Below are positions 41,653 to 54,932 of a stretch of DNA of 64,000 nucleotides, piece after piece. Each line of letters opens with the position of its first letter. Within the stretch, counting starts at the first letter, position 1. The position numbers and the translations under genes were made by a program. The notes under the pieces were generated by a model. That model did not search any database. It had not been told where the DNA came from and saw only the letters and a program-made list of their open reading frames with translations. The stretch is from Aurantiochytrium sp. KH105. Lineage: Eukaryota > Sar > Bigyra > Thraustochytrida > Thraustochytriidae. The stretch lies in assembly GCA_003116975.1 (NCBI GenBank), contig BGKB01000173.1:1-64000 (forward strand), read 5' to 3'.

Positions 41653-42159
41653 TTATTGCGCTGATGGTGTCGCCAGATCGCTCGCGACCTGAGAGGCTAC
41701 TTTCTTGGCAAGTTTTTCCGGAGTTGGCTCGGGAGGCATGATGACTGGAGTGGCGACGACGACGGGCGTGGCGGCCTTGCGAAAAGGAACGCAGCCGTCC
41801 AAAACGCCACGGGTGAAACTGCTTGCAAGAGCAGGAAGCTTCTTACCGAGCTCGCGAGCAACTTCCTTTTCGCTGCCACCGGAAATGAGGCGCTCAATCC
41901 TTGCTTGTGCCTCTGGATTGACGAGCCAGGCGTTGATACCGCCAGCAATCAGGTTGGTCAGCGTATCGTGAACCTCGGGAACTTCGAGCATGCTCACCGT
42001 GAATCGTCCTGCGCTGCGTACAAGCATGGCTTCCGCCTCGTTGGCCCACTTTTCCATTTTGTCACGGTTGATAACAGACCGCAGCCATGATACAAGAAAC
42101 ACGATGGTGAGCACCGTCCCGATCACAAAGCCAAAGCCAATGTTGATTGTGATGATCAT
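41653..42159 (-). CDS. Small single-TM protein, paralogue A of an unrecognised family
   Basis: 168 residues from ATG 42159 (MIITINIGFGFVIGTVLTIV). A short N-terminal hydrophobic segment (about 5-26) acts as a signal anchor. A soluble helical region (about 30-125) then includes EVPEVHDTLTNLIAGGINAW, LVNPEAQARIERLISGGSEK and EVARELGKKLPALASSFTRG, followed by a Pro/Val-rich linker and a basic-to-acidic tail. The same ordered motifs occur in the gene at 43902-44459 (PEV, GIN-x-WL-x-NPE, EVA-x-(E/Q)LG, SF). The two are therefore paralogues, transcribed divergently 1.7 kb apart. I do not recognise the family; membrane association is the only functional statement supported. Confidence 0.75.
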   Translation of the reverse strand: MIITINIGFGFVIGTVLTIVFLVSWLRSVINRDKMEKWANEAEAMLVRSAGRFTVSMLEVPEVHDTLTNLIAGGINAWLVNPEAQARIERLISGGSEKEVARELGKKLPALASSFTRGVLDGCVPFRKAATPVVVATPVIMPPEPTPEKLAKKVASQVASDLATPSAQ

Positions 42160-43901
42160 TTTCTTTGTCTTGTCTTGTCTTGTCTTTCTTTCTTCACCGA
42201 GCAACGCGCTCGCGCTGTCGCGTCCTTAGGAAGTGCCGCTTGCCGATCGTGGCTTTCTCTGCAGCCTCGTCTACGCCAGCGTTGGCGTCGGCGTCGGCGT
42301 CTGTGTCGCCGGCGGCACACGGAGCTCCTCCTTTTATCGTCAGCGCGGGTTCTTGAAATCTGGACAGCGTCCTCTTTCCGCGCCGGTCGATGCCGACGCA
42401 GGCAGGCGTGCAAGGCCGGCCAGCAAACGAAGGCGCTCTCTCTCGGCTGCTGTCTTCGTGCTTCCCTTTCCCCCCGCGTGCCCTCGCGCGCTCGCCGGCT
42501 CGCGTCCAAATCGGTCGCCGACTTCGGTCTTTGCCGTCGTCTATTTGCCTACTACTACCTCGTGTGTCTACGCAAGCCCTGCGTCACCTCTTTCTTACCA
42601 GGTATTTGACGGATTGACGGTCGGGGTCTGACACACGCCTGACATCCCCGCGTCAGTCAGCTGCCGGCTGCAGCGTGTGTGACATGCGGGTCAGCTATGG
42701 CAGCTCGCGCGATCATCCATCCATCCATCCATCCATCCATCCACTGCCATCCATGGATGGAATGATTATCGAATGATCGCGAATGATCGCCTGAAAAAGA
42801 GAACAACGCACGAACGGAGGACTCGGACTCGCTCTGCAGGCTGTCGGCGACGACGGCGACCGACCGAAACGGCCAACGTTTCGTAACGCCCCAACCGACC
42901 GCAGACATATCAACTCCCGGGTCGGGGGCTGCGGAGAACCAGGCCCTGACGCACACAAGCAACAGCACTTGTGCGCGCGAGGGGCCTGGTCGGGGGCCGG
43001 GGCCCTCACGGCCGGGCCATCCCCCGCTCCCCGCGGCCCTCGTTCCGGTCTGCGCCGCCCCGCCCCGCCCCGCGACGCTCCGCTCTTCCTCCGCCCGTCC
43101 CCCTCGCGCCTCGGCCTCGCGTCTGCCGCGCGCATCGTCCTCGTCGCGAGTCGCGGGGCCTGGCTGGCTCCGCTGCCCGGCCGCCGCTCGCGACGCAGGC
43201 GGTAGCCGCCGGCTACCCGGATCTCTAGCGGTGTGCGTTACGCCCGCCCGCCCGCCCGCGCCTCTCTCGGGTAACCAAGTTGGGAGCAAGAGCGGAGCAC
43301 GCAGGCTCTTCGTTCTCTGATCCATTGTAGCCGCCGCCGCCGCCGCCTCGAGGCCGCCCCTGCAGCCGCCACACCCCGCGTCCGCTCGCTGGTGCCTTCC
43401 GCGCGCCCGGCGCCGTGTCTCTCTCCCGCGGCATCTGCGCGGCTGCTTCCCGAGCGCGGGCGTGGGGCGCGCCTGCGTGCTCCGGTGTTGTTCTTTCTCC
43501 CTTGCGTCCCAGCCAGAAGACGGCGTACCAGAGACAGAGACAGAGAGACAGAGACAGAGACAGAGACAGAGGGAGGCGGGAGGGGGGCGGCGCAGTCCAG
43601 TCCACGCCGGCCGGCCTCGCGCAGTCCCGAAAGGTCGCGGCGCGCGGCGGGCGGTCCATCGCGGCGGCGCAGAAGGGCGGCGGCAGCGGCAGCGGCAGCG
43701 GCAGCAGCGGCAGCAGCGGCAGGCAGGCAGCAGTGCGAGGAGGAGGAGGAGGAGGAGGAGGAGAGCCGCACATACATGAGCGGCAACCTCTCGCGGGCGG
43801 CAGCAAGAGCAGCGGAAGAGGCGTGCTGGGCGCAAGGCGTGCCCGGGGGCGATGTGCACGAGGCTGCCAGCAAGCTCGCGAGGCATGCCGTCCAGGTAGA
43901 C
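42160..43901. other. Divergent intergenic region between the paralogue pair
   Basis: About 1.74 kb, very G+C-rich, with (CCAT)n at 42715-42742, (GACAGA)n at 43529-43570, (GGCAGC)n and (GAGGAG)n at 43680-43762. Long overlapping frames on both strands are low-complexity. An in-frame ATG at 43776 could extend paralogue B by 42 residues. TCTTG repeats precede the paralogue A start (about 42165-42188). Confidence 0.5.
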
Positions 43902-44459
43902 ATGAGCCAGCAGGCGCAGGGCCAGCAGCAAATGATGCAGCAAGCTCAATTTGCACAAATGCGAGACCCATACACGGTTACCCTGCGGATCGAGGTCGGC
44001 AGCGATTTCTTGCTGCTCGTTCTCGGCATAATTGTGGCGTTCGTTCTCTGGGTGCGGTTCTCAGGCTTCGCGGGCCGCCTCGCAGGGAACATTGCAGACT
44101 GGGTAGAGGCGCGCGTTGTAGCCACCTCTTGCAAATTCGTTGTGGCCCTCTGCGAGGACCCAGAGGTGGCTCGCGCCGCGTCCAAGCTCATGGCTTCCGG
44201 AATCAATCAGTGGCTCGCCAATCCGGAAACCCAGGAGCACATTAGGACTTTTTGGACGCGCGCGCCCGACCGCGAGGTTGCCGCGCAACTCGGCCGCAAC
44301 ACGCCCCTTCTCGTCAAAAGCTTCGTCGATGGACTAGGCCATCAGATCATGTATCAGTTCGCCCAGCGCGTCTACGACGACACCAAGAGTCTTCGCGGCG
44401 CGCTCGGCTGGAAGTCCTCGAATGGCGTTGCCTTCATACCATCAGCACCGTCATGCTGA
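43902..44459 (+). CDS. Small single-TM protein, paralogue B of the same family
   Basis: 185 residues from ATG 43902; an in-frame ATG at 43776 would add 42. After a Gln/Met-rich start (MSQQAQGQQQMMQQAQFAQM) comes one TM segment at about 33-50 (FLLLVLGIIVAFVLWV). The shared helical domain follows: VVALCEDPEVARAASKLMAS, GINQWLANPETQEHIRTFW, REVAAQLGRNTPLLVKSFVD. Relative to paralogue A the spacing from TM to PEV and from PEV to EVA is nearly constant, which supports homology. The C-terminus differs (ends AFIPSAPSC). Function unknown. N-terminal TM and no cleavage motif suggest an anchored protein with the domain on one side of a membrane. Confidence 0.7.
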   Translation: MSQQAQGQQQMMQQAQFAQMRDPYTVTLRIEVGSDFLLLVLGIIVAFVLWVRFSGFAGRLAGNIADWVEARVVATSCKFVVALCEDPEVARAASKLMASGINQWLANPETQEHIRTFWTRAPDREVAAQLGRNTPLLVKSFVDGLGHQIMYQFAQRVYDDTKSLRGALGWKSSNGVAFIPSAPSC

Positions 44460-45856: not shown

Positions 45857-48800
45857 ATGGCGGCCGAGGAGGAGCAGGAGCCGGCAGGGCAGAAAACGTC
45901 GCGCAAGAGCATGTTCAGCATGCTCAGCAACAACACCATCGCCCGGATCAAGCTCACCAACTTCATGAGCTATGACGCAGTGGAAATCTACCCAGGCCCC
46001 GGTCTCAATCTTGTCATCGGGCCGAACGGCTCAGGCAAAAGCACTCTCGTGTGCGCCATCGCTCTCGGTCTTGGAGGCACGCCCGATCTTTTATCTCGCG
46101 CGAAAAATCTCTCTGGGTTCATCAAACGCCGTGATGACGGCACGCAGGCAGAATGTGCGGAGATTGAGATCGAATTGAACAACAGGGGCGGCGAGCCATA
46201 CATCATCCGTCGCATTCTTCATAGAGCAGGGAGCGGTGGGGGCAAGGCTCGGAAGGGGAGCAAGGACGCCCAGAACCAATCTACTGTCTATTACAATGGA
46301 AATCAAATCGATCCCGCAACACTCAAAGATCGTCTCTCGAGGCTGAACATCCGCATTGACAACATGTGCCAGTTTTTGCCTCAAGACAAGGTGAGCATGT
46401 TCAGCAGACTCAACGAGCAAGAACTTCTCGTAGAAACAATTCGCGCGGGCCTGGGGGAAAGCATGGTCACTCGCATGGTCAGCCTCGGAAAACTACAGGA
46501 TCAGGTCCGAAGTTCTGCCAACACCGCCGAAAACGAGCGTGCTGAGCTCGCGCAATATGAGGCAGAGCTCGAAAGGCTCCATTCCGCGCTCGAGGCCTAC
46601 GAGAGGCTTGAGAGCTTTAAGAAACAGCTCCGATCTCATGAGGCCAAAATCGACTATAAAAAATTTCAAGCGGCTCGCGATGCGTATAAAGCCTTGAGTG
46701 CCCAGGTCAAGCAGCTCAAGAAGGCAAAACAAGCTGCCACGGAAGAAGAGGCCAAGGCTGACGCTGCGCTGAAGAAAATTGTCAAAGAAACCCATAAATC
46801 GCGCCATGGTGACGCGGAGAAGGGATTGCCGGTACTTCTCAACGTAGCGAAGCATACGAGCAATCTTTCTCGAGGTATTCGTGACCATGCCCAGCGCTCC
46901 GAAGCGGCCGCAGACAACATCAAGGACGTCTTGATGTCACGGCAAACTGCGAAGACAAAGGTAGAAGAAAAGCAACAAGAGGTGGCCAAACTTGACCAAG
47001 CCATTGCTAAATGGGAAGAGGAGAATGACGTGAAAGCGTTAAAGGAGGCCAGGAACAGGGCAACTTTCGAAAGAGACAAGTTGCGTCAAGAGAACAGTCA
47101 GGTGCAGGCGCAATCGAATGAACTCAACGCTACCATTGAGGAATTACGCGCCGTCCTGAACACTGCGCAACACAGAGCGCGAGGCCTGCAAAAGGAAATG
47201 CATGCACCGGAAAGCGTGTTCAAGCTCCTGAACAAGATCAATGGTGGCATCCTACACCAAGGCTGGCGCATGGTCAAGGAGATGGTTAGTGCTGGAAGCA
47301 TTGGGGGTAAGGTGTATCTTCCGATCCTTTCCATCAAGCCCAAGTCCACGGAGATTGCCTCCCAGCTTGAGCGCGTGATTTCACAAAAACAGCTTGTCAC
47401 GCTTATGACGGAGCACCCGGCCGACAGGTCCAAACTCATGAGTGTAAAGGGTCTGGATTGTTTGGTTTTGAACTCCTCTCGCGAACCGCGTCGTGTCGAT
47501 CCCCAATTTATGAAGGAAATCAAAGCCATCGGCCACGCCGATGAACTCTTTGAAGCGCCCGACGTGGTCGTGAGGGGCCTGTGCGACATTGCGGGCATTG
47601 ACAAGGTGGTCATAGGGTCTGCCGAGACGGAGCATATCCTGCTCAATATGGACGAGGAACGGCTCAAGCACACCCTTGTCAACATGCGAGTCGTCACACC
47701 GCATCACGAATGGAGTTTACGCGCCTCGCGCTACGGCGAAAAGGATGTCTTAATAAACACTCGCATATATCGCGAATTCCCGATGCCACGATTCCTGGGC
47801 GCTAGCATGAAGAATGATGAATCCGAGCGTCGCTTAAAGGGATTTTTAGAAGAAGAGGTGGCCACGAAGAAACGTCTCGCAAGCGTCGAGTCTGAACTCG
47901 CCCAACTCCAGCCTCGTCTGGCTGAAGCAGCGACGAGGCGCGAGGCGATACATCGCGAGGAGCGCAAGGCAGCTGAACGGATCAAGGCTTACAACGCGCT
48001 TCGCATCAAACATCGGATGGCTGGTGAACAACTCGCCAGAGCGCAGCGCTCTTTGAACGACGATCCAAGGCCTGAGGTGGAGGCCAACGTCGAATCTGTT
48101 ACCACTTCATGTTTAGGCATGGTCGGCGTCATGGAAGAGAAAGTGGGGAATATCTGCGCAGGCGGAGCGGCGCTTTCAACGATGGCGGGTACAATCATGC
48201 GTAGCGCTGCGGAGAACGCCAAACGCGCCGTGGCGCAGCAATTTCACCAGGTGAAGATGCAAGAACTTCAGAGAGCCCACCAGACTCTCGAAAGAACCGC
48301 AGCAGAGTCTCAAAGGGTGAAGAACGAAGCTCAGCAACTCAAGGAGACCTTTAACGAGAAGTGGGGGGGCGAGATCGAACAACTCACCGACGCTTTTCAA
48401 AGCATTTCGGATGACATGGACGAGCTCCTGGCCACGGCCATGCTGTTTCGGAAGCGGATAGACAGTGCCACGACTGATGAGTCTGCCATCCAGCGGTATA
48501 AAAAGGTCAAGAAAAAGGTGGAAGATCTTCGCGAGAAGGAAGCGGATCGCCAAGAGCAGAATGCGAACGACGAAAAGAAACTCGAGACCGAGCTCGCGGA
48601 CTGGACGAGAAAGGTGCGTTTACTCATCAGCAGAGTCAATGACAATTTCGAGCGATCCTTTGCGCTCGTGAGCGAAAAGGGGTACCATTGCAAGGGCTCC
48701 GTCGCGCTGGAGATGGTTCAAGACAATCTCAAGGAGAGCGGCGTGGTCATCAAGGTGAGCTTCCGCAAGGATCAGCCGCCCCGACGACTCGACGTGACCG

Positions 48801-49192
48801 TGCAGTCGGGCGGTGAGCGGTCGCTTTCCACCTTTATGTACCTTTTGGCTCTCAACGAGGTATCCAAGGTTCCCTTTCGCGTGGTCGACGAAATCAACCA
48901 GGGCATGGATGAGGACAAGGAACGCATTTCCATGCAGCGTCTCTTCGACAGTGCGTCCAACCCTGGTTCCGGGCAGTACTTTCTCATCACACCCAAGTTG
49001 CTCGCGGGCATGCGATACCACGACAACATCACCTTTCACGTCATCTTCAATGGCGATGGAGCGCTCCCCTCGCGTAAAATGCAAATGGCAAAGTTTCTTG
49101 CAGCGCCTCGTGACCGCGGAGTGAAACGTTCTGCCTCAGGTCTCGACGACAAAGAGGGCAAGCGCTCTCGTGTCGCGGCCCTGCAGTCATGA
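45857..49192 (+). CDS. SMC5: SMC5 (structural maintenance of chromosomes 5), copy 1
   Basis: 1111 residues from ATG 45857 (MAAEEEQEPAGQKTSRKSMF). SMC5 pairs with SMC6 in the nuclear SMC5/6 complex, which acts in homologous recombination, fork restart and chromosome segregation. N-terminal head: ARIKLTNFMSYDAVEIYPGP and canonical Walker A GPNGSGKST at 55-63. CQFLPQDKVSMFSRLNEQEL is a strong SMC5 hallmark. Coiled-coil arms flank a central hinge (about 480-650, including GGKVYLPILSIKPKS). C-terminal head: signature SGGERSLSTFMYLLAL and Walker B region FRVVDEINQGMD, the form specific to SMC5 and not SMC6. A basic tail follows. A second SMC5 gene begins 766 bases downstream on the same strand. Confidence 0.96.
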   Translation: MAAEEEQEPAGQKTSRKSMFSMLSNNTIARIKLTNFMSYDAVEIYPGPGLNLVIGPNGSGKSTLVCAIALGLGGTPDLLSRAKNLSGFIKRRDDGTQAECAEIEIELNNRGGEPYIIRRILHRAGSGGGKARKGSKDAQNQSTVYYNGNQIDPATLKDRLSRLNIRIDNMCQFLPQDKVSMFSRLNEQELLVETIRAGLGESMVTRMVSLGKLQDQVRSSANTAENERAELAQYEAELERLHSALEAYERLESFKKQLRSHEAKIDYKKFQAARDAYKALSAQVKQLKKAKQAATEEEAKADAALKKIVKETHKSRHGDAEKGLPVLLNVAKHTSNLSRGIRDHAQRSEAAADNIKDVLMSRQTAKTKVEEKQQEVAKLDQAIAKWEEENDVKALKEARNRATFERDKLRQENSQVQAQSNELNATIEELRAVLNTAQHRARGLQKEMHAPESVFKLLNKINGGILHQGWRMVKEMVSAGSIGGKVYLPILSIKPKSTEIASQLERVISQKQLVTLMTEHPADRSKLMSVKGLDCLVLNSSREPRRVDPQFMKEIKAIGHADELFEAPDVVVRGLCDIAGIDKVVIGSAETEHILLNMDEERLKHTLVNMRVVTPHHEWSLRASRYGEKDVLINTRIYREFPMPRFLGASMKNDESERRLKGFLEEEVATKKRLASVESELAQLQPRLAEAATRREAIHREERKAAERIKAYNALRIKHRMAGEQLARAQRSLNDDPRPEVEANVESVTTSCLGMVGVMEEKVGNICAGGAALSTMAGTIMRSAAENAKRAVAQQFHQVKMQELQRAHQTLERTAAESQRVKNEAQQLKETFNEKWGGEIEQLTDAFQSISDDMDELLATAMLFRKRIDSATTDESAIQRYKKVKKKVEDLREKEADRQEQNANDEKKLETELADWTRKVRLLISRVNDNFERSFALVSEKGYHCKGSVALEMVQDNLKESGVVIKVSFRKDQPPRRLDVTVQSGGERSLSTFMYLLALNEVSKVPFRVVDEINQGMDEDKERISMQRLFDSASNPGSGQYFLITPKLLAGMRYHDNITFHVIFNGDGALPSRKMQMAKFLAAPRDRGVKRSASGLDDKEGKRSRVAALQS

Positions 49193-49957
49193 CAGATATG
49201 ATAGATAGCTCTCTCTCCCTGTGCAGTTTGTATCGGCTTGGCTGACCTTGACATTTCTAGAATAACAACGTGACAGCTGTAGTGGGCCATCCATGAGTAT
49301 CAGGCTATCGCCACCCCCCGTCTTGAAGTTCAACCGGAATGCCACCACGGCTACCGGTCGGGAAAAAGGTTTGGACAGACACTGCTTTTCTCCAAGTTCC
49401 GTCAATGCTTGTTTCTTCTTCATTTAATCCCTCTGCACACGTCGACAAGTCTACCTCGTTCGGTGACGAACGGCGGTCCACGGCAGGTCTGCAGTCCTTG
49501 CCGCCGTGCAAACGCGCCGCACGCGCGTCACGCGCGAGGCGCTTCTGCCGATCGACCGATCCGTGTTCGCCGCAAGTCAGCACTGTCTCTCCATACTAGG
49601 ATCGTATTGTTTTTTTCCCGCCGGGTCTGGCAGGTGCCAGTTAGGTTGCGCCGCGCCGCGGTGGGCGGAACCGCGCTCTCGTGCATCGATACCATACATA
49701 GGCCTAGTAGGGGCCTGAAAACTTCTGGCGCTTGTCGGTCGCTAGAGCTCGAAAGCCGCAGCGGAGGGAAACCCACCTTCGCTCGCTCGCTCGCTCGCAC
49801 GCGCGAGCGCCGGGCGCGCGGGGCTGGGGAGACGGAGGCGGCGAACTCGCGCGAGACGGGAAGCTCGAGTTTTTGCTTTTGCATTTGCACTTGCGTTTGC
49901 GCTCGGTGCTTGGTGCCGGCGCACGCTGTGTACGAGCGGGCGCGCTGACGCGTGAAC
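49193..49957. other. Spacer between the tandem SMC5 genes
   Basis: 765 bases. It contains ATAGGCCTAGTAG near 49699, (GCTC)n at 49781-49797 and TTTGC-type repeats at 49871-49900. No convincing gene; it presumably carries the second gene's promoter. Confidence 0.45.
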
Positions 49958-52900
49958 ATGGCGCCCGAAGACGCGACTGACGAGAACGCGTCGCAAGAGG
50001 GATTGCGCGCAGCAGAGCTCGAGCGCGGAAAGAAAGCGCAGCAACACGGGGCCGCGATGGCTGCGAGGACTGGAAAGGGGGAGGCCCCGGAATTCGCCTT
50101 GGGTGCCGTGCGGCGGCTGGTGATGAAAAACTTCATGACGTACGAGTCTTCAGTCCTCGATGCTGGTCCCAGGCTAAATCTCATCATTGCCAAGAATGGC
50201 GCTGGCAAGTCAACAACGCTGCTAGCGCTGGCACTCGGTCTTGGTGGGCACCCGCGGCTTTTGGGCCGCGCGGCTAACATTGCAGGCTTCATTCGCCACG
50301 GACAGTCCAAGGCGCGAGTCGAGGTGACCCTGCATGATCCAGAGCGTAATCACTGTACGGTCATCCGGGAGATCGAGCGCGTGGACCCCAAATCCGCGCG
50401 AGCAAAGGAAGCCTCTCAAACCGAATGCGACAATGGCGATGATGACGATGATGATGACGACGACGACGATGATGACGACGAGGAGGAGGAGAAGAGGGGC
50501 TCCTCGCAGCGCAAGCCCAAGTCATCCTCTTCGCATCGGCAAGCTCGGCAAAAGAAACGGGTCAGCAGACGCAAAGTCAGTGCCGTGTCGACGTGGTGGC
50601 TGAACGGCAAGGTGAGCTCCGAGAAAAAGGTTCGGTCCTTCCTCAAAAAGCGGTACAACACGCAAGTGGACAACTTGTGCCAGGTGCTCCCCCAGGACAA
50701 GGTGACAATGTTTAGCAGGCTCGACGAGGCTCAGCTTTTGACCGAAACGATTCGCGCCGGCATCGGACAAGCTTGCGTGGACGAGCAGCAGGAAATTGTC
50801 AAAGAGCAAATTGCTCTTTCCCAAGCCGCTGTCACCGTGAAATCTGCTCAAGAGGAGCTCGAGCAAAAGGTAAGAGAAATCACCACTCTTCATGAAAAAG
50901 TCAAGCGACTCGAGGAGCGAGAGCAAGCAATTGAACGCATGGAGCTCTGCACAAAACGACTTCTGCACCTGGAGATTATGACGTTGAAGAAGGGGAGCGA
51001 CGACCTCAAGAAGAGAATGCAGACGGCCTACGAAGCGGTAAAGGCATCCAAGGTGCAACTTGCGAATGCAAAAGCAAGACTAGCGGCAGCGGAGTCCAAG
51101 ATTCAAGGCGACAGCAAGCCACATCAGGCTGAGTCGGCCCTCCATCGCGCGCTGATTTCGATCCCAGATTGCGCAAAGCGCCTGTCGACGGCGGGAGACA
51201 AAATGGACGCCACCCTTGACAATTTTAATGACGAACGTCAACTCCTGAACAAGGAAAAATCCAAGCTTGAACAAGCGCGGGCACGTCTTGGCGAATCGAG
51301 GGGCGCGCTCGAGGCCTGGGCCGCAGAAAATGATGAGGGCGAGCTTCAGGAAAGACGACATGCAGTGAGCGCCAAGTCGGAAGAGATGAAGTCGAGCCAG
51401 CGCAAGCTCGGCCGCGAGCTCGCCGGTATCGACACGAACATTCAAGACAAGGGTACAGAAGAGTCAGGGCTCCTGCGATCCCGCGACAAGCTCCGAGCGC
51501 ACCTACAATCCAAAGAGCTGGTCCTGGACAAGTTGCGGAACACGACATTGAAGCGGGCCTGGAGCCTTGTCAAGTCGCGCCAAGAGCAAGGTGTCGCCAA
51601 AGGCAATACGTATCTTCCACTGATGGAAATTAAAGCCAAGTCAAAGACCGCAGCCAGTTTCATCGAGCGGTGTGCAGGCATCAAGAAGCTCATCACCATG
51701 GTGTCTGACTCTTCGGTAGAGGCGCGCGAGTGTTTGTATGGGCTCAAAGGAATCGATGTCATCGTGGTGCACAAGGTTGCGGAGCCCTCACGGCGGCTTT
51801 CCGCGGAACAGCTCTCTCGCTTCGGCTTTGAAGGTTACCTTGACGAGCTCATCGAAGCCCCACCAGCGGTCATTCAGGCCCTGCGGGACATTGCCAGCAT
51901 TCAGAATTGCGTGGTCGGTCCCGAAAATGCGGCGCGAGCATTCTTGGGGCTTGCAGAGGAAGAGCGTACTAGACTCTTTGAGGGTCTCCAAGTCCAGACG
52001 CCCCGCACAGCATTCTCTGTGCGGCGATCGAGGTATGGGGCGCGCAACAGTTTCATGACGACCCACGAGTACGCGAAAGGGCTCCCTCCTGCCCAATTTA
52101 TTGGGGGCGCGGAGGACAGCGAAACAAAGCGGCGACTCGTTGAAGTGGAATCCAGCCTGCAAGGGCTGCGTCGTGAGCTGGCTGACCTCAACGAGGACCG
52201 AGATCGCGTGGCAAGCAAGCGCGACGCCTTGAACGCGCAACTTTCGCCGCTTGACAAAGAGAGCGCAAACATTCGCAAGCTGCTCGAGTTTGCGCGGAAG
52301 CAAAAGGTCCAGATTACGACGAACGAGTCCGATATCAAGAGTCTGGAGACGCGACTGCAGGCACTTGCAGGGAAGCAGTCCCCGAAAAGGACGGCTACGC
52401 AAGTTCAAGGCGCCATCGAGGCTTTGGTGGCTAGCGTGGGCGCTATGGAGAAAATGACCGAGAAGGTGATAGCCGGAGTGCCTGCGCTTGATAAGATCGG
52501 CCTCCACCGCGTGCGCGACGCTTCGCATCGTCTGCGCCTTGCTACATTTTCCACACAGGTGCACAAGGCGCAAACAAGTCTACAGCGCGCTGAAGATGAG
52601 CAGACGATCGCCCGACAACAACGTGATGAAAATCGAAATGCGCGTCGCAACCTGCTAGGTAAGCTGGGCAAACTCAGCGTGGAGGAAGAGAATGCCATTT
52701 CAGAGCTCCCTGAGAGCAGGGAAGGAGTCCTCAAATTGCGCGAGAGTCTTCGCGTCAAAGTGGAGGCAATCATACCGGACAATAGTGTCGTCGAGCGGTA
52801 CGAGACACTTCAAGAAGAAATCGCTGAACTGAAAACGGAGGTGTCATCCGCCGAGGAGCGTCAAGGTGACCGCGTCTCGACCCTTCAGGCCCGTGTGGAC

Positions 52901-53575
52901 GCTTGGACCGCAGAGGTACAAGATCTCGTCTCCAAGGTGAACGAGAACTTTGAGACCGGCTTCCATCGCATCGAGGAACAGGGATATCACTGCGCGGGTC
53001 GCGTGCAATTGGACATGAACGCATTTACCGGCAAATCTGCGGCGCAGGTAGGGGGAAGAGGCCCCGAAGGCGTGAGTACCCTTGCTACATGCGGCGTCGT
53101 GATTAGTGTCCGGTTTCGCGCCAATCAGGCGCTTCAAAGGCTCGACGCGCACGTTCAGTCCGGTGGCGAGCGTTCGCTAACGACGTTTCTGTATCTTTTG
53201 GCGCTCAACAATGTGTCCAAGGTCCCCTTTCGCATTGTGGACGAGATCAATCAGGGTATGGACGAGGAAAAGGAGCGAATTTCCATGCAGCATCTTTTCT
53301 CCACCTCGTGCGACAAGACGGCTGGGAGCCAGTACTTTCTCATCACGCCAAAGTTGCTTACTGGCCTTGCATTCCCGGAAGCGGCCAAGATTCATGTCGT
53401 TTTCAACGGCAATGGCGCGCTGCCTCAGCAAAAGGTGAGTTTTGGCCGATTTCTTCGTTCGCGAACCAAGCGATATCTCGCAGACAGGACCAATGCGAGC
53501 GATTCTGCCACAGAGTTTGTCTCTGCGCCTGATGCTGCGATCAAGCGCCGGCGCACCTCTATCTCCTGTCGCTGA
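49958..53575 (+). CDS. SMC5 paralogue, copy 2, with altered Walker A
   Basis: 1205 residues from ATG 49958. Same architecture as copy 1: VRRLVMKNFMTYESSVLDAG, CQVLPQDKVTMFSRLDEAQL, ETIRAGIG, hinge KGNTYLPLMEIKAKSKTAAS, signature SGGERSLTTFLYLLAL, and FRIVDEINQGMD. Two features stand out. The P-loop reads AKNGAGKST (about 78-86), so the first Gly of Walker A (GxNGxGKS) is Ala, while the Lys and Ser are kept. An inserted acidic run of about 20 Asp/Glu plus a basic Ser/Arg stretch (about 160-210) splits the N-terminal head. It is SMC5-like, not SMC6: the INQGMD Walker B region is retained. The arms have diverged much more than the heads. It may be an alternative SMC6 partner or a regulatory, weakly ATP-binding copy. 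Confidence 0.93.
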   Translation: MAPEDATDENASQEGLRAAELERGKKAQQHGAAMAARTGKGEAPEFALGAVRRLVMKNFMTYESSVLDAGPRLNLIIAKNGAGKSTTLLALALGLGGHPRLLGRAANIAGFIRHGQSKARVEVTLHDPERNHCTVIREIERVDPKSARAKEASQTECDNGDDDDDDDDDDDDDDEEEEKRGSSQRKPKSSSSHRQARQKKRVSRRKVSAVSTWWLNGKVSSEKKVRSFLKKRYNTQVDNLCQVLPQDKVTMFSRLDEAQLLTETIRAGIGQACVDEQQEIVKEQIALSQAAVTVKSAQEELEQKVREITTLHEKVKRLEEREQAIERMELCTKRLLHLEIMTLKKGSDDLKKRMQTAYEAVKASKVQLANAKARLAAAESKIQGDSKPHQAESALHRALISIPDCAKRLSTAGDKMDATLDNFNDERQLLNKEKSKLEQARARLGESRGALEAWAAENDEGELQERRHAVSAKSEEMKSSQRKLGRELAGIDTNIQDKGTEESGLLRSRDKLRAHLQSKELVLDKLRNTTLKRAWSLVKSRQEQGVAKGNTYLPLMEIKAKSKTAASFIERCAGIKKLITMVSDSSVEARECLYGLKGIDVIVVHKVAEPSRRLSAEQLSRFGFEGYLDELIEAPPAVIQALRDIASIQNCVVGPENAARAFLGLAEEERTRLFEGLQVQTPRTAFSVRRSRYGARNSFMTTHEYAKGLPPAQFIGGAEDSETKRRLVEVESSLQGLRRELADLNEDRDRVASKRDALNAQLSPLDKESANIRKLLEFARKQKVQITTNESDIKSLETRLQALAGKQSPKRTATQVQGAIEALVASVGAMEKMTEKVIAGVPALDKIGLHRVRDASHRLRLATFSTQVHKAQTSLQRAEDEQTIARQQRDENRNARRNLLGKLGKLSVEEENAISELPESREGVLKLRESLRVKVEAIIPDNSVVERYETLQEEIAELKTEVSSAEERQGDRVSTLQARVDAWTAEVQDLVSKVNENFETGFHRIEEQGYHCAGRVQLDMNAFTGKSAAQVGGRGPEGVSTLATCGVVISVRFRANQALQRLDAHVQSGGERSLTTFLYLLALNNVSKVPFRIVDEINQGMDEEKERISMQHLFSTSCDKTAGSQYFLITPKLLTGLAFPEAAKIHVVFNGNGALPQQKVSFGRFLRSRTKRYLADRTNASDSATEFVSAPDAAIKRRRTSISCR

Positions 53576-53795: not shown

Positions 53796-54932
53796 ATGGC
53801 GTCCGCCACATGGAGCACGGGCGAGCTGGAGTTCGCCAAGACGTTCTCGACGGAGCGCTACAAGCTGCTGGAACTCCAGCCTGAGCTCGAGGAGGCCTTG
53901 GCGACCGGCATGCCCGTTGAGCTGCACATAAAAGGCCCGCGTGGGAGTGGCGACAAGGAGCAGAGCGCGACCTTGTGCACGGAGAAGACAACCTACATGA
54001 TGCGTAAAGCGGAGTCGAGCAACACGCACCTCTTGCTAAGTGCAGAGGAACCACGGAAAACCATTGCAGGTCAAGTGGACTTTGCCTATGAGTTGATTCG
54101 CGTAGCACCTCGCGTTGGACCCGTGGCCCTTCTCCTTCAGGACCGAGCCTTTGGCGAAAATCTGTGCCATGTGAGCACTGCCAGCGTGCTTGAAGATCCG
54201 CAGTGCGTTGCTTCAGCTGGGTGGACGTTTTCAGAACTTGCTGCGCGCATTCAGGCTAGCAACGAGGAGATCCGTGCCGAATTGGCGCGCCTTGGCGCAT
54301 TCGAGCTGGGCGGCCGTTGGCTGACGGTAGACGAAAAATTGGAGTCTGATGTCATTGCTCAGTGTATTTCGGTCGTTGTGGAGACCGGAATGGACGCCAA
54401 AAAAGTATCGACACGCGCAGTATCGAATGCCTTGGAACATCGTTTTGGCGATTTTTGCATTTCCAGGGTTCTCGACCGCTATGCAACGCAGAAAACGACT
54501 CGTGATGATGGTGATGCGATTATCTCGCTTGATGCGAGCAAGGTCGCTCGCTTTTGCGCGGAGGAGATCTTTAAACAGAGCACGGACCCCGCGCTTGATG
54601 CCGATGAGTTCCTGCGCTCGTGGGAGCTGGCACTGCCAAAGGGCGTTAGCACGAGCGAGAGCGCTCTGGCTGGGCTAGCCCTTCGTCTTGAAGAAGGCAG
54701 CGGAGGGCGCCAAGTGTACAAGTATTTCCCAGCGACGCGGCTCCCCAGTGATCTCAAGACGTGCTTTGCAGAGCTCTTTGCAGCACGCAAGCAGTGGAAG
54801 CTCGCTGACATTGAGCCTTACATTGCGCATCTTTTGGGTCCGAGTGTGAAGAAAGCGGACCTTTTGCGCCGTTTCACGCGATCTGTTCGCGTCTCACTCT
54901 CTTCCGACGAGCGTGTCCTGACGTCGCGATAG
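53796..54932 (+). CDS. DSCC1: Sister-chromatid cohesion protein DCC1
   Basis: 378 residues from ATG 53796; the frame stays open upstream through the end of SMC5 copy 2 but lacks homology there. DCC1 is the winged-helix subunit of the CTF18-DCC1-CTF8 alternative clamp loader, which loads PCNA and promotes cohesion. Matches: YKLLELQPELEEALATGMPV, ATLCTEKTTYMMRKAESSNT, AGWTFSELAARIQASNEEIR, LGAFELGGRWLTVDEKL and WELALPKGVSTSESALAGLA, in the order seen in the family. The C-terminal winged-helix region includes KYFPATRLPSDLKTCFAELF, and length is typical (human about 393). It lies 220 bases after SMC5 copy 2 on the same strand, placing three chromosome-maintenance genes together. Confidence 0.9.
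   Translation: MASATWSTGELEFAKTFSTERYKLLELQPELEEALATGMPVELHIKGPRGSGDKEQSATLCTEKTTYMMRKAESSNTHLLLSAEEPRKTIAGQVDFAYELIRVAPRVGPVALLLQDRAFGENLCHVSTASVLEDPQCVASAGWTFSELAARIQASNEEIRAELARLGAFELGGRWLTVDEKLESDVIAQCISVVVETGMDAKKVSTRAVSNALEHRFGDFCISRVLDRYATQKTTRDDGDAIISLDASKVARFCAEEIFKQSTDPALDADEFLRSWELALPKGVSTSESALAGLALRLEEGSGGRQVYKYFPATRLPSDLKTCFAELFAARKQWKLADIEPYIAHLLGPSVKKADLLRRFTRSVRVSLSSDERVLTSR

Follow-up and report, generated by a model that had tools for sequence, protein, structure and literature searches.

Does one genome build more than one kind of SMC5/6 ring? SMC5/6 is usually treated as a single complex. The question is raised by the first 64,000 nt of contig BGKB01000173.1 of the thraustochytrid Aurantiochytrium sp. 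KH105 (assembly GCA_003116975.1; this whole stretch is called the window), where an initial annotation had noted a tandem duplication of SMC5. We find that the two genes, SMC5A (copy 1) and SMC5B (copy 2), are SMC5 paralogues and not SMC6, and that both are under purifying selection. Of the SMC5/6 genes searched for, SMC5 is the only one to be duplicated. These data suggest that the organism has two alternative SMC5/6 complexes, differing only in SMC5 and sharing SMC6 and NSE1–NSE4. We put the probability of this reading at about 0.72.

Two SMC5 genes, both maintained

The two SMC5 frames are intact and lie head to tail on the same strand, with DCC1 next, and both carry the SMC5 signatures ascribed to them in the initial annotation (Table 1). 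Pfam domains SMC_N and AAA_23 were assigned to each protein, and each has an ABC ATPase head in two lobes that bears Walker A, Q-loop, SGGERS and Walker B elements. The catalytic residues (K, S, Q, SGG and DE) are retained in SMC5A and SMC5B alike, so both should be ATPases. The SMC5-typical motifs CQxLPQDKV, VDEINQGMD and FLITPKLL are present as well; the Q-loop reads CQFLPQDKV in SMC5A, and the sole departure in SMC5B is a valine for the phenylalanine after the Q-loop glutamine. Aligned by BLASTP, the proteins share 312 of 996 residues (31%), and the score (408 bits, E = 1e-127) places their similarity far above chance.

Comparison with solved structures gave Smc5 as the top match in each case: 7ylm_A for SMC5A (E = 2.9e-67, versus 1.3e-11 for SMC6) and 9lwi_I for SMC5B (E = 3.7e-56, versus 6.1e-11 for SMC6). 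The latter values, together with tree placement within SMC5 (below), rule out that SMC5B is an SMC6. ATPase motifs, hinge and arm layout of the solved Smc5 chains 7ylm_A, 7qcd_A and 9lwi_I are all shared with SMC5A and SMC5B. What differs here is that there are two genes, and that SMC5B has altered neighbours of the P-loop and Q-loop, with an acidic stretch inserted in its head.

An AlphaFold model of SMC5B (1169 amino acids (aa), the listed frame minus its first 38 residues; 34 alignment rows) had a mean predicted local distance difference test score of 75.4 and a predicted template-modelling (TM) score of 0.45. It contains two head lobes, two arms and a hinge, with helices 235–481 and 684–971 flanking the mixed hinge; confidence was below 50 for residues 111–168, an acidic/basic stretch. 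When the model was searched with Foldseek, Smc5 chains took the first four places and Smc6 chains the three after them, and the hinge matched 5mg8 and 8i4u. Full-length matches had TM-scores of only ∼0.3, because the long arms do not superpose, and root-mean-square deviations above 100, so the overall geometry is unreliable. Structure matches for both proteins, the tree, and Foldseek for SMC5B confirm that each copy is an SMC5.

Could copy 2 be an assembly artefact, a pseudogene or a contaminant? The assembly (76 Mb, 367 contigs) resembles two haplotypes or homeologues, and a second contig, C20, carries the SMC5A–SMC5B pair in the same order as the window contig, C173. Over the 17 kb compared, the two contigs align in two long blocks of 94–95% identity and, near one end, two short blocks of ∼86%. 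All 11 other gene pairs compared in the genome showed 91–97% DNA identity, the NSE4 pair as two overlapping blocks. Between C173 and C20, the ratio of nonsynonymous to synonymous rates (dN/dS) was 0.255 for SMC5A, 0.236 for SMC5B and 0.169 for DCC1; for SMC6, between its own paired contigs, it was 0.126. Thus the two SMC5s are under about equal constraint, both looser than SMC6. For SMC5B, the changes amount to 46.5 nonsynonymous and 59.5 synonymous, with no stops, and a pseudogene is very unlikely on these grounds. An artefact would find some support in the near-identical Hondaea, for which two SMC5B searches returned no SMC5B protein. Yet the SMC5B frame is intact over 1205 codons, sits between SMC5A and DCC1 on both contigs with aligned flanks, and has orthologues elsewhere (P0001 and P0127). 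Since the pair is also on C20 and both genes are under purifying selection, we consider an artefactual or decayed copy 2 very unlikely, indeed close to negligible.

One set of partners found

Searches for partner genes covered SMC6 and NSE1–NSE4; Nse5/6-like factors were outside their scope. SMC6 genes, for which the initial annotation had proposed to look, whether one or two, came to one locus, on contigs C99 and C102; the other eight of the ten matches (best 39 of 49 candidates) were SMC5s. The C99 protein matched solved SMC6 with E = 2.2e-75. NSE1, NSE3 and NSE4 gave two matches each, that is, one pair each. Paired partner contigs, flanks included, are 92–95% identical in DNA and allele-like. 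The zf-Nse search returned eight matches forming four pairs: C210/C226 is NSE2-like, a pair with a SAP domain is of the PIAS type, and a pair of 874-aa frames was assigned no type. No second SMC6 or NSE1–NSE4 locus was found by these searches, which ignore introns and score the best candidates only and could therefore miss a strongly diverged extra subunit. An AAA_23 search (best 15 of 115 candidates) gave 15 places, namely seven pairs plus one place on C73, whose mate is on C18. The pairs are SMC5A, SMC5B, SMC6, three further SMC-like genes and a pair with the longest frames, which we take to be RAD50.

The fourth zf-Nse pair (L031:676-3150 on C146, and L034 on C42) is a frame of ∼1430 aa in which an SP-RING/MIZ-like finger is joined to a DEAD_2 helicase domain. 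DEAD_2 scored 1.3e-31; the finger scored 24 bits, under the cut-offs of both Pfam models when the cut piece was scanned. The frame is a possible SUMO-ligase–helicase fusion.

Two SMC5s and one each of the other subunits found argue for two rings that share SMC6 and NSE1–NSE4. An old tandem duplication gave SMC5A and SMC5B, and selection has kept both. In the scheme proposed, the hinge of each most likely binds the single SMC6, and the head of each the single NSE4, along with NSE1, NSE2 and NSE3. NSE4 binds SMC5 at the C-terminal head lobe. Alternatively, SMC5B might have left the SMC5/6 pathway, for example as the partner of SMC5A or of some other SMC, or in a role that involves no ring. That only one SMC6 was found for two SMC5s, and that the P-loop and Q-loop of SMC5B are changed, would fit this. 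But the SMC5B hinge evolves much as the SMC5A hinge does, hinge data place the A and B clades together, and conservation of the C-terminal head lobe of SMC5B is close to that seen in ordinary SMC5s. We regard an SMC5B outside the pathway as improbable.

Age and symmetry of the duplication

Two trees were built, one of 39 rows (a single SMC6 row among them, its branch very long) and one of 19 SMC5 rows. In the larger tree, an A clade (window SMC5A, C20, Hondaea and P0008) and a B clade (window SMC5B, C20, P0001 and P0127) each had support of 100/100. The two were sisters in both trees (100/97 in 39 rows, 97/96 in 19), and outside them in the larger tree fell Mucochytrium (95/77), P0010/P0011 and P0012; copy 2 did not fall inside SMC6. 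SMC5A equals in length the deposited Hondaea fermentalgiana protein P0007 (1111 aa) and is 99% identical to it, which bears out the labyrinthulomycete lineage proposed initially and marks Hondaea as closely related to this organism. An old tandem duplication within the labyrinthulomycetes, with both copies kept, is the best explanation of these data. The initial annotation had likewise inferred an old event and two surviving copies, and the sister clades and the dN/dS values agree with it.

Which came first, the duplication or the split from Mucochytrium, is resolved to a moderate degree only. Approximately unbiased (AU) tests on the whole protein (19 rows), with groups defined once the first tree had been inspected, gave p = 0.026 for A joined to Mucochytrium, 0.013 for B joined to Mucochytrium, 0.054 for B outside Mucochytrium plus P0010/P0011 and 0.038 for A outside. 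By domain, a duplication before the split was rejected by the hinge in five of five arrangements (p-AU ≤0.034) and by the C-head in four of five (p-AU ≤0.024; the fifth, 0.067). The N-head and the two arms do not decide the timing, the N-head leaning towards B outside and arm 2 towards A outside.

The C-head also behaves unusually. Its free tree does not recover a monophyletic B clade, and joining window SMC5B and P0001 to the A clade costs a log-likelihood difference of only 0.04 from the best tree. The hinge does not reject the same arrangement (p-AU = 0.15), but rejection comes from the N-head (0.007) and from both arms (0.004 each). An ancient gene conversion between SMC5A and SMC5B in the SMC5B C-head, at roughly 52900–53450, is thus possible but unproven; it could colour the picture of duplication age.

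SMC5B is present in at least three lineages. The protein searches, three in all, scored 7995, 7994 and 7992 candidates; the SMC5B searches gave 6 and 24 matches, among them the B-clade proteins P0001 (47%) and P0127 (38%), and the third the best 120 of 405. With candidates limited in this way, the searches do not show that other taxa lack SMC5B.

Is copy 2 the diverged one, as first described? Identity between SMC5A and SMC5B is 42% in the N-head, 54% in the C-head, 16% and 17% in the arms and 31% in the hinge. The claim that heads stayed alike while arms diverged is therefore correct as an observation. It is not special to this pair, however: from N-head to C-head, SMC5A and Mucochytrium share 51, 21, 24, 16 and 51%, and conserved heads with diverged arms are the ordinary pattern of SMC5 orthologues. 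Measured from the A/B ancestor, the paths to window SMC5A and SMC5B, respectively, had lengths of 0.72 and 0.82 (N-head), 1.35 and 1.41 (arm 1), 0.79 and 0.86 (hinge), 1.54 and 1.57 (arm 2) and 0.56 and 0.68 (C-head). SMC5B has the longer path in all five domains, by little. The corresponding paths to Mucochytrium were 0.61, 1.42, 1.36, 1.69 and 0.75. Tajima relative-rate tests of window SMC5A versus SMC5B were not significant with any of six outgroups (p = 0.09–0.83). A further 18 tests used P0008 and P0127; three had p < 0.01, the A-clade member being faster in two and the B-clade member in one. Neither the tests on the window pair nor the path lengths support asymmetric divergence of copy 2.

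This symmetry is what redundant or dosage-type duplicates would give: two proteins doing the same job, their differences reflecting drift under shared constraint. The similar paths and the null rate tests speak for it, and SMC6A and SMC6B of Arabidopsis are partly redundant (PMC9099584). Retention of both copies across divergence down to 31% identity is nonetheless long for pure redundancy. Each clade, moreover, departs at sites that are otherwise conserved (four in B, seven in A), though the replacement letter varies at three of the four B sites. We judge redundancy somewhat unlikely and favour two alternative complexes.

Clade-specific residues, parallels and neighbouring genes

How might the two proposed complexes differ? 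An alignment of 34 SMC5s, picked from search matches and some of them closely related, has 92 columns in which conservation outside the B clade reaches 85% or more. The three B-clade proteins all depart at four of them (P56, V65, C66 and F173, SMC5A numbering), and all four lie in the Walker A loop or the following helix or just after the Q-loop glutamine. The residue after that glutamine is V, V and I in the B clade and F in the 31 others. At the first glycine of Walker A, SMC5B and P0001 have A and P0127 has G. The acidic-then-basic N-head insert is long in SMC5B, shorter in P0001 and lacking in P0127; its acidic codon run in SMC5B also scores as a tandem repeat.

Lying beside the ATP, the B-clade changes may alter the ATP cycle of SMC5B or its regulation. 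By extension, part of the labyrinthulomycetes might have two SMC5/6 machines, with SMC5B, its nucleotide pocket remodelled and its ATPase cycle different, serving a particular stage or task. This proposal is tentative, and we hold it to be possible but doubtful. Several points weigh against two alternative complexes with a changed SMC5B ATP cycle. Clustering of the B sites has p = 0.0017 for the Walker A and Q-loop spans but 0.089 for all five ATP-motif spans, and the spans were chosen after the sites were seen. The A clade departs at seven columns of its own (four in the N-head, one in an arm, two in the C-head), so the B clade is not uniquely altered. Finally, the two SMC5B searches that lacked a Hondaea SMC5B among their matches stand beside a Hondaea SMC5A that was found; a broken gene model or annotation gap and a true absence are both possible.

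Arabidopsis SMC5 is single. Specialised cohesins and condensins have arisen repeatedly through duplication of SMC subunits. The initial view that SMC5 is normally single copy needs qualifying for another protist: PMC2488364 describes Smc5a and Smc5b of Trichomonas vaginalis (53% nucleotide identity; expressed sequence tags for both, under different conditions), with one Smc6 entry. The likeness is two SMC5 genes beside one Smc6 entry. The Trichomonas duplication differs in being independent, placed by its authors within parabasalids, and in that Smc1, Smc3, Smc4, Rad21 and Scc3 were multiplied too. In Daphnia, SMC6A and SMC6B are on one scaffold, 165 kb apart, and the table of that paper lists one SMC5 (PMC2680839). 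Like Arabidopsis, it has one SMC subunit of SMC5/6 doubled, but in both the subunit is SMC6. Meiosis-specific SMC1 beta, a cohesin paralogue mentioned in PMC2680839, and the X-specific condensin of nematodes (PMC12629237) resemble the arrangement proposed here, in that a swapped SMC subunit in a shared ring makes a specialised complex. They concern cohesin and condensin, and specialisation is established there, whereas here it is only inferred. In the titles and abstract openings of the literature searched, no thraustochytrid SMC5 duplication was reported.

An SMC5 pair this old, beside the single SMC6/NSE set found, amounts to a natural experiment that isolates the contribution of the SMC5 side. 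Since thraustochytrids are transformable, the copies could be tagged or deleted individually. A specialised SMC5B complex, if real, would parallel, within SMC5/6, meiotic cohesin or the dosage-compensation condensin.

Table 1. Features of the SMC5 locus in window coordinates
Feature	Coordinates	Strand	Description
SMC5A (copy 1)	45857..49192	+	1111 aa, single exon, ATG start at 45857
SMC5B (copy 2)	49958..53575	+	1205 aa, single exon, ATG start at 49958
SMC5B Walker A	50189..50212	+	AKNGAGKS instead of GPNGSGKS; catalytic Lys and Ser retained
SMC5B low-complexity stretch, acidic then basic, N-terminal head lobe	50396..50569	+	mostly insert versus SMC5A
SMC5B Q-loop	50678..50704	+	CQVLPQDKV
SMC5B signature QSGGERS to Walker B/D-loop VDEINQGMD	53156..53263	+	intact
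DCC1 (neighbour only)	53796..54932	+	Pfam Dcc1, E = 9.5e-59

The GTG listed for SMC5B, at 49952, lies two codons 5' of the ATG, and the ATG is conserved on C20. The DCC1 frame, for a cohesion-establishment factor, lies directly 3' of SMC5B on the same strand on C20 as well as in the window. Its start was taken as the first good ATG in the window; the same start words could not be matched on C20. Two neighbouring divergent frames, at 41653–42204 (−) and 43392–44459 (+), lie just ahead of SMC5A and had no Pfam match. They are homologous to each other (33% over 120 aa, E = 8e-19) and form another old local duplicate pair, this one inverted.

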